NCBI GenBank assembly: GCA_000469685.2
Contig: LS997564.1
Coordinates: forward strand, 23,524,165 to 23,588,164
Direction of reading: 5' to 3'
Source of the DNA: Haemonchus contortus
Taxonomy: Eukaryota; Nematoda; Chromadorea; Rhabditida; Trichostrongylidae
DNA length: 64,000 nt
The notes below the pieces were generated by a model that saw only the letters and a list, made by a program, of their open reading frames with translations, was not told the origin of the DNA and ran no database searches. Made by a program: the position numbers and the translations under genes. Below, piece after piece: positions 1-6,634 of the stretch. Each line of letters starts with the position of its first letter. The stretch's first letter is position 1.

Positions 1-1623
1 CGCGTCAAATTCCAGGATGATACGCCCGAGGCGGAAGATATAGTTGACTTCCCCGTAAGTATCAACAGTGTTCTCCCCACGGCTTATTCGATACGACCGT
101 CCGTTCATTTTGTCGGCCCTTTACACGCAATTCGGCCGCATGATGCGCTTCAGGAACAAAGGAATGACCAGTTTTGCTCTGCTATTTTATCTTTCATAGA
201 GACGCAGCGGTTCCCCTCTTCTCTCGATGAGCAACAAAAGTCGGCATGGCTAGAAATTGCGGAGAAATGCGTAAAACGGAACAACGGTTGCGTCTATTAC
301 GTAGACAGACGGTCAGACACCAACCCCTTCCGCTTCGAACGCCTACTTGTACCAAACAAATTGAAGGAGCCTATTTTCTTGGCATTCCATACGAGCCCTT
401 CTTCGGGTGGTCACTTTAATTGGAAGAAGACACTCGCAAAAATATCACGCAAATATTTTTGGCCCCATATGGCCGAAGATGTTTTCACGCTGGTACGCGC
501 TTGTGAAGAATGCCAACGCAAAAGACCTAATGCAGCCAACCGTGAAGCACTTATACCCGTGGTAAGCGGAGCAATCTTTGATAAGGTTTACGTCGATCTG
601 ACTGGCCCCCTACACACGTCTGAATCGGGTAATAAATACATTCTCGCAATGATCGACCATTTTTCTAAATATGTTATCGCCACCCCGTTACCCGACTGTA
701 CGGCGATTACGGTAGCGCAAGCCATCGTTTCGGAATGTATATTAAAGTTCGGCGTAATGACTCAACTCGTCTCGGATAACGCTTCCTATTTTAAAGGCGA
801 GGTAATGTCAGAAATAGGACGTTTCCTCCGCATACACAGGTATTATTGTACTCCCTACCACCACGAAGGTAACGGTGCTTGCGAGCGTATCTTTGCTACT
901 TTCCACCCTATGCTCCGCACCTATATCAATGAAAACCAACTTGACTGGGATAAATACGTTTGTGCTTGCGCGTTCATGTATAACACCTCTATTCACGCCA
1001 GTATTAACAATACTCCTTTCTTCCTCATGTTTGGACGTGACCCAGTATTTAATATTGATCTCCTTATACGGCATGATTCTGAGCGTCACATTCCAGCGGA
1101 TGATGCAGGATTTTACGTGCAAAATCTTGTTGCTACCCTACATGCCGCTTGGCGCGCAGCAGTTGCTCACAATGAACGGCAAAGAGCTAAATTTAAGGCA
1201 CAGTACGACCGTTCTCATCTGTCTCCTCTCTCCATCAAGGAAGGCGACCGTGTTTATCTCCGCGACCTAGCCCCTAAAGTAGGACTGTCACAAAAGTTAT
1301 GCTATCCTTGGTTGGGGCAGTTTCGAGTGATCAAGGTGGAACCCCCACATTTAACTATAATTAGTATCTCAGCGCCGCAATCAACGCCTAAAAAGGTGCA
1401 CATGAATCAGGTTAAACCATGTTATACCTTGTCAGGTCCTGTATTTACAACTCCTTGGTTGCCTGAGATCGAACAAGTGGCGCTAACCGCAGCTGATGCA
1501 TCGGAAAATCCTATACAAGGTTATGAGCATACGGAAGCCGAAGCCCCGCCCACCGCCTCCATCAACCAATCACCGACCCACTCTTATAATACGCGTTACA
1601 GGTCTCGACGTACCTCCATTTGA
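1..1623 (+). CDS. Ty3/gypsy-type Pol, C-terminal part with integrase (5' partial)
   Basis: The frame is open from base 1, so this is the 3' end of a longer Pol that starts outside the window; TTG at 361 is not a start. Seen: an H-H-C-C zinc-binding region (GGHFNWKKTL near 408-440, CEEC near 505-515), then the DDE integrase core with D codons at about 595 (VYVDLTGP) and 775 (VSDNASYF) and E at about 883 (GNGACER). The D-x35-E spacing is exact. A GPY/F-like C-terminal module follows (LGQFRVIKVEP near 1310). The N-terminal 120 codons fit the RNase H-integrase linker. Integrase would insert the element's cDNA. No stop or frameshift is visible, so the part in view looks intact. The family call is firm; the element name is unknown. 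Confidence 0.93.
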   Translation, partial: RVKFQDDTPEAEDIVDFPVSINSVLPTAYSIRPSVHFVGPLHAIRPHDALQEQRNDQFCSAILSFIETQRFPSSLDEQQKSAWLEIAEKCVKRNNGCVYYVDRRSDTNPFRFERLLVPNKLKEPIFLAFHTSPSSGGHFNWKKTLAKISRKYFWPHMAEDVFTLVRACEECQRKRPNAANREALIPVVSGAIFDKVYVDLTGPLHTSESGNKYILAMIDHFSKYVIATPLPDCTAITVAQAIVSECILKFGVMTQLVSDNASYFKGEVMSEIGRFLRIHRYYCTPYHHEGNGACERIFATFHPMLRTYINENQLDWDKYVCACAFMYNTSIHASINNTPFFLMFGRDPVFNIDLLIRHDSERHIPADDAGFYVQNLVATLHAAWRAAVAHNERQRAKFKAQYDRSHLSPLSIKEGDRVYLRDLAPKVGLSQKLCYPWLGQFRVIKVEPPHLTIISISAPQSTPKKVHMNQVKPCYTLSGPVFTTPWLPEIEQVALTAADASENPIQGYEHTEAEAPPTASINQSPTHSYNTRYRSRRTSI

Positions 1624-2241
1624 CCTGTTGGTCAGACTCAACGATTATTTTTAATACTATGTTACGCATTTCCTTCAGAATTTGTTTCCTTTCAAATGTT
1701 TTCTCCCATGTCCGCCGCATGGTATCATTTCTTTGTTTACGTTCGCAGCTTTGTCGATCGCACATCTTGAAATGCCATAGCCAACGCAGCCTCCTTTCCG
1801 AGATGCCACGCCCCCTATCGACCATTGATTAACCCACTCATCGCCAGCATTACACGTAATTTATTCCTGCCTTCTTTTATTCCTTTTTTAACCTTTGGCT
1901 TGCCTAACGTTTTACAAATATGATTGCATAGCCAACTCGTCGTCATGCCTTCGGTTTCTTTTTTTACTTAGTTTACGCAGCATCATATTACTACACGTTT
2001 TCGTTCAAATATCCGCGTACCTTTGCGCACACTACATATTATTCTACCTATTATTTACATGTATATATATATATATCATATCTACATATCACATTCATTG
2101 CTGTTTCTTTTTCCATATTCGTAATTAACACTCTAGACGTTCTTTTGTTAAATACTTTCAATACATCACTCTTTTTTCAGGTGATTATTTTGTTCTCTCT
2201 GCTCTCTTTCTGTGCGATCGTGACCGATATTTTCGCTCACT
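1624..2241 (+). other. Spacer between integrase and the downstream helicase ORF
   Basis: This AT- and pyrimidine-rich stretch has only short chance ORFs. It contains a TA dinucleotide run near 2058-2075 and a strong polypyrimidine-AG at 2171-2180. It separates pol from the extra gene in the place where retroviral env genes are reached by splicing. Confidence 0.7.
2171..2180 (+). promoter_or_regulatory. Predicted 3' splice or trans-splice acceptor for the extra ORF
   Basis: The sequence CTTTTTTCAG followed by GTG matches the nematode 3' splice consensus closely and lies 61 bases before the ATG at 2242. It could accept an exon from the element's 5' leader, giving an env-like spliced message, or a spliced leader. 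The function is inferred. Confidence 0.6.
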
Positions 2242-3042
2242 ATGGAGGAAATACCGCTTCCTCCCGATCCGGATACAGGTACGAATCCGGTCGTTACTTC
2301 TTCATCTTCTATTGTTTCTTCTGTTGATTCTGTTACATCTCAAAGTCGCGTAGCGACTGAAACGACGATTATTTCTTGTGCTCCTTCTGATGCTCCTCAG
2401 TCCTCTCAGGACGTAAGCATCAATGTTTCTGCTGATTCCACCGCGGAGTCCGCGCAGCTGAAACACTCACCTGTATCTGTTTCAGAAGATGTCCCGATGC
2501 ATGACGTAGCTGAATCTCTTGACGATTCTTCGATGATCTCTCGACGCTCTTCTTCTCCATCCGTAGAGTCCTCCAATCTTGACTCCATGCGTAGTATGAC
2601 GGATTCGATGTCCAAGTTGTCGATGATACAGCCGTCGGCCCAAGAAGCTGCGCCCGCTCTTGAGTCCCCGCAGGCCCCTCCAACCACGATGAAGCGAGCC
2701 GCTCCAGCCAGTCACCAGTCACCCCCCGGGGATCTCCCCGCCCGGGGCACGCGCGGCGCGCACCAAAATTCCCGCGGGTCTCGAATCTCTTCTCGAGGTC
2801 GAGGTCCATTTACCATGACGATGGTTTCATCGCCTTCCCCCGCAGCCTCCAGCACCCCGTCATCGTCTTCTTCGCGAGGTGCTTCCTCGCGCGGTGCTTC
2901 TTCGCGAGGCGCCTCGTCGCGAGGTACTTCTTCGCGGGGTGCTTCTCTCCGTGGACGAGGAGCCAAGCAAGCCCGCCAGTATCTCAGGTGGAAACGTCTC
3001 AGTTACCTCAAGTCACTCCTCCTGAGTTCTCTCACTACCTGA
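2242..3042 (+). CDS. Ser-rich, RG-repeat low-complexity ORF preceding the helicase
   Basis: It opens at an ATG 61 bases after the predicted splice acceptor. The first ~200 residues are Ser/Pro/Asp-rich and look disordered. Residues ~212-240 carry tandem SSRGA repeats (a 15-base unit near 2866-2950) ending in RGRG, a composition typical of nucleic-acid binding tails. The last ~140 bases overlap the helicase frame, which is also open there and shifted by -1. The protein sense runs from the RG repeat into the helicase frame near 2960-2985, so the two ORFs are probably one polyprotein or one gene broken by a one-base shift. No enzymatic domain is recognised. Confidence 0.6.
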   Translation: MEEIPLPPDPDTGTNPVVTSSSSIVSSVDSVTSQSRVATETTIISCAPSDAPQSSQDVSINVSADSTAESAQLKHSPVSVSEDVPMHDVAESLDDSSMISRRSSSPSVESSNLDSMRSMTDSMSKLSMIQPSAQEAAPALESPQAPPTTMKRAAPASHQSPPGDLPARGTRGAHQNSRGSRISSRGRGPFTMTMVSSPSPAASSTPSSSSSRGASSRGASSRGASSRGTSSRGASLRGRGAKQARQYLRWKRLSYLKSLLLSSLTT

Positions 3043-6164: not shown

Positions 6165-6232
6165 TTTCCGGTGAGAAACTTCCTTTTTTTCTTTTTTCGG
6201 TATACATTCTTAAAGTCCGGGTCGGACTTTGG

Positions 6233-6245
6233 GTAAAGGGGGAGG
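6233..6245 (+). promoter_or_regulatory. Polypurine tract
   Basis: TAAAGGGGGAGG immediately precedes TGTGAGCC, the arrangement of a plus-strand primer tract followed by the TG of a 3' LTR. It supports calling the helicase ORF internal to the retrotransposon. Confidence 0.6.
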
Positions 6246-6634
6246 TGTGAGCCGCGCCGTGCAAGCGCGGCTATCAGCTGACAATGTTACAAGATGACTC
6301 ATGTTGGTATTTCAGGGCGGAGCGGCGACCGAGAAGAACTTCAACGGGGAGTCGACGACAGTTCGCCACCGAGGACGGCGGCCCCAGGCATTCCATCTCT
6401 ATGGGGCGAAGCCCTGGACACCACGACTATATTCTCCTTGATCTCATTCTCTGTATGGTTCTATATTATTGTTATGTTCTATAATTATTTGTTATCATGT
6501 AATTTATTAATTCCTATTGTTGCTCGTTAATCCATTATTAATGTCATTATGATAAATTGTATATGATTTGATGGTTTTATACAGAAGCAGAGAATGAGCC
6601 CGCTTCCCTGTGCGCGCGAGCTCACTCAATTACA
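6246..6634 (+). repeat. Probable 3' LTR of the helicase-carrying gypsy element
   Basis: It starts TGTGAGC right after the polypurine tract and is taken to end near GCTCACTCAATTACA, which starts with a near-inverse of the LTR start. The 5' LTR is outside the window, so the 3' border cannot be confirmed by comparison. The next recognisable sequence is an unrelated Pao relic in the other orientation. Confidence 0.5.

Follow-up and report, generated by a model that had tools for sequence, protein, structure and literature searches.

A UPF1-like helicase as a constituent gene of a Ty3/gypsy retrotransposon lineage in strongylid nematodes

We analyzed a stretch of 64,000 nucleotides from the nematode Haemonchus contortus (the window; contig LS997564.1, here C3, positions 23524165-23588164), which opens inside the pol gene of a Ty3/gypsy (Metaviridae) long terminal repeat (LTR) retrotransposon. 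In its env position, this element carries an open reading frame (ORF3) with a superfamily 1 (SF1) helicase core that is UPF1-like as judged from sequence and predicted fold. ORF3 is a constituent gene of the element lineage: it has co-diverged with the integrase, and its protein has stayed conserved although synonymous sites have reached saturation. Related elements in several strongylid families have kept the helicase over long evolution. The order of the lineage is LTR, gag, a class III glycoprotein resembling herpesvirus glycoprotein B (gB), protease-reverse transcriptase (RT)-RNase H-integrase, the Arg-Gly-rich (RG)/SF1 helicase ORF3, polypurine tract, LTR. A first-pass annotation of the window had already proposed a gypsy-type element with a UPF1-like SF1 helicase at the env position, which is what we found. 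Its view was incomplete in that the gB-like glycoprotein, located between gag and protease, lies upstream of the window.

Structure of the element

The rest of the element lies directly upstream on the same contig, within the 10 kb preceding the window (L029). By coordinates, the element measures 14,202 bp (14.2 kb) from LTR to LTR. Its 5' LTR (L029:2425-2805, corresponding to C3:23516589-23516969) and 3' LTR (window 6246..6626, plus strand) are each 381 bp long and are bordered by a 4-bp target-site duplication, CAAT (5' copy L029:2421-2424; 3' copy window 6627..6630, plus strand). The two LTRs differ at 2/381 positions, which suggests that the insertion at this locus is young. A polypurine tract (6235..6245, plus strand) adjoins the 3' LTR. 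The first-pass annotation placed the tract and the LTR start correctly but let the element run to 6634, whereas the LTR ends at 6626; its order of integrase, RG ORF, helicase ORF, polypurine tract, and LTR on one strand agrees with the domains and coordinates found.

A sequence resembling a primer-binding site follows the 5' LTR; two pattern searches returned no tRNA matching this stretch. Further 3' in L029 lie a leader and a 1092-aa open frame with a CCHC knuckle (zf-CCHC, 1.8e-6, above the Pfam cut-off), and capsid matches in this gag frame are weak (0.00043 and 0.00089, under the Pfam cut-offs). Protease, RT (RVT_1), and RNase H occupy L029:7742-10000, the protease match being weak (0.0013, under the Pfam cut-off), and the same frame continues into the integrase of the window. 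This C-terminal part of pol, comprising the integrase with H2C2 zinc finger and rve core as well as a tail, is an open frame at window 1..1623 on the plus strand (Integrase_H2C2, 4.8e-18; rve, 5.9e-9). Taken together, the two LTRs with a target-site duplication, the gag zinc knuckle, and the order of protease, RT, RNase H, and integrase identify a Ty3/gypsy element.

In this copy, gag-glycoprotein and pol overlap briefly and are read in different frames. Gag-pol frameshifting was rejected as a general property of the lineage: at other loci (five matches), a glycoprotein match without interruption sits within a single open frame of 2111-2373 aa, and the frame break therefore looks copy-specific. 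In three further copies, all on C6, helicase sequence is enclosed by LTR matches on either side (C6:23276744-23290904, C6:26955908-26970024, and C6:20989505-21004499). The last of these matches the 3' LTR only partially and lacks the 3' portion of the helicase. The expectation that LTRs flank pol plus helicase was borne out.

The glycoprotein (L029:5916-7763, corresponding to C3:23520080-23521927) is in frame with gag and located 5' of the protease. Its predicted fold resembles herpesvirus gB, and it combines the features of a class III fusogen: a predicted gB/VSV-G fold, a signal peptide, and a C-terminal membrane anchor. Homologues occur in strongylids and two Caenorhabditis species, and two of them attain the cut-off of Pfam PF24664. 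The predicted fold is held in common with herpesvirus gB and the class III fusogens of Monjiviricetes, but the protein of the element shares the reading frame of gag and precedes the protease, and is not a 3' env. Endogenous retroviruses of the Errantivirus type have env as their third, 3' ORF, whereas here the 3' ORF is the helicase. With the putative fusogen placed between gag and protease, the env slot of this element is occupied by the helicase instead.

ORF3 and its UPF1-like core

ORF3 starts with an Arg-Gly/Ser-rich N-terminus of low complexity (the RG ORF; 2242..3042, plus strand), followed by the UPF1-like SF1B helicase (2988..6164, plus strand; 1058 aa in this frame). The first-pass annotation had described an RG-repeat ORF and a helicase ORF. 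Both are present, but their separation is due to a frame shift at the RG/helicase junction of the window copy: in relatives, the two parts form one reading frame, as in L031 (1294 aa) and in copy B, which spans the junction and breaks later. Because both read through, RG part and helicase are generally a single protein, and we rejected both a pair of distinct 3' genes and a programmed RG/helicase frameshift as the general state. A chance ORF was likewise rejected, since the longest open frame across 200 single-base shuffles of the stretch was 276 aa, compared to the 1058 aa observed.

The helicase frame gave profile matches to AAA_12 (1.3e-40) and AAA_11 (1.2e-9). Motif patterns located the SF1 motifs I, Ia, II, III, V, and VI at 4803-6020, among them motif I (Walker A, GTGKT; 4803..4817), motif II (DEASQ; 5346..5360), and motifs V (TVDSVQGRE) and VI (RRLNVAVSR; together 5895..6020), all on the plus strand. 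The claim that all SF1 motifs are present therefore stands except for motif IV, for which a simple pattern returned nothing but a spurious N-terminal match. Residues ~365-1053 of the 1058-aa frame correspond to the stalk/1B/RecA1/RecA2 core, and residues ~1-360 fall outside the UPF1 match. Among solved structures, UPF1 was the top match in sequence and fold, including helicase core, stalk/1B position, and motifs; the predicted-fold comparison covered the pdb and pdb_via libraries only. The sequence match reached 189 bits to UPF1 versus 87 bits to ZNFX1. The helicase is not of the plus-strand RNA virus type: Viral_helicase1 gave 0.033, under its cut-off, compared to 1.3e-40 for AAA_12.

The N-terminal region differs from that of UPF1. 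Structural alignments to human UPF1 chains begin at UPF1 ~290, and a CH-type Cys/His cluster was not found, with one conserved Cys within residues 1-360 (alignment A3). ORF3 has an SF1B core but is without the N-terminal CH (UPF2-binding) domain of UPF1, and in this respect it differs from a true UPF1 orthologue. With the N-terminal half (residues 1-560) as query, all 15 proteins found were strongylid.

A candidate 3' splice site (TTTCAG in a T run; 2175..2180, plus strand; motif only) is located between integrase and ORF3, and a strong 5' splice-site match lies directly 3' of the 5' LTR (L029:2838). Comparable 3' splice-site motifs precede ORF3 at L031 and L032. The site is degraded in copy C, and the first 1500 bases of L067 contain no such motif. 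These signals suggest that ORF3 may be expressed from an env-like spliced mRNA.

Co-divergence, copy counts, and possibly derived genes

We compared integrase and helicase distances in 13 elements picked via their helicase matches, 11 from the source genome and one each from O. dentatum and A. duodenale. F11 and F12 were excluded from the integrase comparison because they have no usable integrase; F2/F8 and F4/F7 are near-duplicate pairs. The distances were correlated with r = 0.889 (13 elements, three species), a value reached by 0/9,999 permutations. Without F7 and F8, r was 0.855 (again 0/9,999), and without F7, F8, and the other species, it was 0.864 (nine elements; 7/9,999). Well-supported splits of the two trees were concordant, and disagreement was confined to weakly supported places (P0005, F9, F31, F1). 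The helicase tree thus follows the integrase tree, a check that the first-pass annotation had named.

For eight between-family pairs, the proportion of synonymous differences (pS) was 0.77-0.84 and that of nonsynonymous differences (pN) 0.21-0.41, so that synonymous sites are saturated while the protein is conserved; these values are given because dN/dS is undefined between families when dS is saturated. The close pair F2 and F8 had a helicase dN/dS of 0.09. A protein search returned 68 helicase matches, 30 of them strongylid; none of the other 38 exceeded 37% identity, a value reached over 18% of the query. The top matches were H. contortus proteins (99-100%), and eight strongylid genera besides Haemonchus were represented. 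In the helicase tree, from which 26/78 rows had been removed as short, redundant, or doubtful and which contained no UPF1, SETX, or AQR rows, 26 strongylid helicases formed one clade (100/100), separated from the other 26 rows by a branch of 1.89. The first-pass annotation had inferred that the element captured a host helicase; such a capture is possible, UPF1 being the nearest relative of solved structure, but the branch leading to the remaining helicases of the tree is very long.

A protein search of the genome (283.4 Mb in seven contigs) with the helicase gave 50 match pieces, and 43/580 candidates were scored. Sixteen of the 50 are free of stops over 960 residues or more and, the window copy aside, show 37-65% identity; many helicase copies are damaged. 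For the glycoprotein census, we used 50 of 78 genome matches, 20 of them full-length (at least 1700 bases) and 30 partial, and compared their loci with 50 + 13 helicase matches from the genome listings plus two from L032 and L033. Helicase sequence was found downstream on the same strand at 19/20 full-length glycoprotein loci, partial helicases counted: at a distance of 1.6-5.7 kb in 18 cases, and in pieces at L067. The C6:16944297 locus retains a C-terminal helicase remnant only. The sole exception is C1:15628216, with no helicase in 15634500-15641000 (L034), 15630072-15634500 being outside the stretch read. Partial glycoprotein loci had a helicase in 14/30 cases and none in 16/30. Conversely, a glycoprotein match lies upstream of 12/20 full-length helicases. 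Of the remaining eight, three form a cluster on C2 (see below), C4:30918364 has adjoining integrase matches, and C1:28837379 has rearranged pol pieces.

Copies with the same LTRs but no helicase had been named as evidence that would speak against the initial proposal. By eye, no LTR pair enclosing pol but not the helicase was seen among the matches listed. One of the 16 partial glycoprotein loci without a helicase, C6:10118571-10120654, is an internally deleted copy: its glycoprotein pieces run straight into an LTR, and neither pol nor helicase is matched in between. At C5:23836693-23843350, glycoprotein and helicase are just 1.6 kb apart, and most of pol is therefore missing between them.

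A helicase at a host locus without retroelement flanks had been the second such point, and candidates do exist. Three tandem helicase genes are located at C2:28419385, 28442589, and 28473555 (array C2:28419385-28476674), with open frames of 1164-1171 aa and a dN/dS among themselves of 0.23-0.33 over 481 codons. Neither the middle gene (~10.6 kb upstream, 3.8 kb downstream) nor the first (~2 kb on each side) is flanked by a credible match to gag, the glycoprotein, or pol; the flanks read contain two short integrase-like matches on the other strand (E 0.003 and 0.010). The first and middle genes share duplicated parts of their flanks (81-91%). In the tree, the middle gene nests inside the element clade beside a Nippostrongylus element (80/89, within a 98/99 clade) on a long branch. 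Therefore, the C2 genes look like descendants of the element and not like its source, and their domestication by the host is possible.

The window contains further repeats outside the element: a non-LTR retrotransposon ORF (8691-11792, minus strand; 1033 aa) that encodes endonuclease and RT domains and has no internal stop, tandem 145-bp units followed by a CA repeat of ~590 bp (12096-13255), a 735-aa ORF that by eye resembles a Bel/Pao gag-protease (21271-23478, plus strand), and two ORFs that by eye resemble a Penelope-type RT (28768-30534, minus strand).

Known systems and the possible role of ORF3

One close likeness is with Cer1, a Ty3/gypsy element of Caenorhabditis elegans, which also is a nematode gypsy with a large non-envelope protein at the env position. 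But its CERV ORF has no obvious homology outside Caenorhabditis, and the word helicase is absent from the available portion of the paper (PMC10309623). The element described here instead has a UPF1-like SF1 helicase at this position and a glycoprotein between gag and protease. SF1 helicases are also carried by the long interspersed nuclear elements (LINEs) TRAS and Jockey of insects and by Ty1/Copia fusions in Aedes aegypti and Leptopilina boulardi. According to the accessible parts of these reports, however, they are of the plus-strand RNA virus type and mostly in LINEs, and the two Copia cases are single fusions, one with stops (PMC5563155, PMC6338049); neither gypsy nor Ty3 occurs in the accessible text of PMC5563155. 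The helicase of our element is UPF1-type, resides in a gypsy element, and co-diverges across strongylid nematodes. The Vesta, Juno, and TelKA LTR elements of bdelloid rotifers likewise have a non-envelope enzyme in the env slot, but their ORF3 enzymes are a GDSL esterase and a DEDDy exonuclease, and in the excerpted text helicase appears in the reference list only (PMC5408684). UPF1/NAM7 itself, the SF1B RNA helicase of nonsense-mediated decay (NMD), resembles ORF3 in core, stalk/1B position, and motifs, ORF3 being without a CH-like cluster. In the titles and abstract starts searched, a literature sample that mostly excludes subscription journals and preprints, we found no description of an LTR lineage that carries a UPF1-like helicase.

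The likeliest role of the ORF3 helicase, with about an even chance, is to escort the unspliced RNA of its own element, serving in export and in protection from NMD. The suggestion of the first-pass annotation that the helicase may act in RNA handling or NMD evasion is plausible. ORF3 would be made from an RNA spliced between the donor that directly follows the 5' LTR and the acceptor ahead of ORF3. The protein would bind the unspliced genomic RNA via its basic N-terminus and UPF1-like core and move along it as an ATP-driven remodeller of ribonucleoprotein (RNP), thereby letting the intron-containing RNA exit the nucleus and survive NMD. The ~5 kb between the pol stop and the 3' LTR end would load host UPF1 on this RNA. 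ORF3 itself, being without a CH domain, should not recruit UPF2 and trigger decay. Its job would be that of CERV for Cer1, and of Rev plus host UPF1 for HIV-1. According to the portions of the source papers available, CERV is produced from a spliced mRNA and required for export of Cer1 genomic RNA, which is not expected to meet NMD because it has no gag-pol stop (PMC10309623). In HIV-1, ~4 kb separate the gag-pol stop from the 3' end, which amounts to a long 3'UTR on which UPF1 loads (PMC3484045), and UPF1 is recruited while UPF2 is excluded during genomic RNA export (PMC4693258); the virus has no helicase of its own and uses cellular ones (PMC3484045; each as far as the text was available). 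By analogy, an element-made UPF1 core without the CH domain would fit such an RNA need.

Two other functions are unlikely, and to the same degree. The helicase could be packaged and aid reverse transcription by unwinding or clearing structured genomic RNA during an unusually long (~14 kb) cDNA synthesis. The coordinate length of 14.2 kb, the linkage of the helicase to pol and its co-divergence with integrase, and the borrowing of cellular helicases by HIV-1, as described in the accessible part of PMC3484045, would agree with this, but the ORF3 frame is separate from gag-pol, so that packaging would need a signal of its own. Alternatively, the helicase might act as a counter-defence against the worm's small-RNA silencing, either by opening RNA duplexes or through competition with host helicases such as ZNFX-1. 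The better match to UPF1 than to ZNFX1 argues against this idea, as does the viral rather than UPF1 type of the insect retrotransposon helicases. It is very improbable, and contradicted by these results, that ORF3 is a passenger host gene, present by chance in one copy or through a recent transduction and without a role for the element: the broken frame in the window copy and the many damaged copies would fit, but presence in eight further strongylid genera, co-divergence with integrase, protein conservation despite saturated synonymous sites, and the 16/50 long, stop-free matches do not. Least credible, and contradicted for the window element, is a host helicase gene beside an inserted gypsy element or an assembly artefact, as LTRs with a target duplication enclose the helicase, the arrangement recurs at many loci and in gene models of other species, and the C2 genes, which without pol in the flanks read could have spoken for it, are represented in the tree by a gene nested inside the element clade.

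More tentatively than the escort role alone, and with somewhat less than even confidence, we propose for this lineage of nematode endogenous retroviruses an as yet undescribed genome plan in which a gB-like fusogen would be part of the Gag polyprotein while the UPF1-like RNP helicase in the env slot would run genomic RNA export and decay immunity instead of Rev or CERV, the host having domesticated the helicase as the C2 array.

An element with its own UPF1-like core across several strongylid families would provide a natural test of the role of UPF1 for retroelement RNA, and, with no UPF2-binding domain present, one that can be separated from NMD. Such an element also presents an env slot occupied by a putative RNA enzyme while a fusogen-like protein adjoins gag. 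A public record of one such helicase (P0003) is named "regulator of nonsense transcripts", which misleads annotation. The helicase may also serve as a marker for this group of elements in parasites of livestock and humans.

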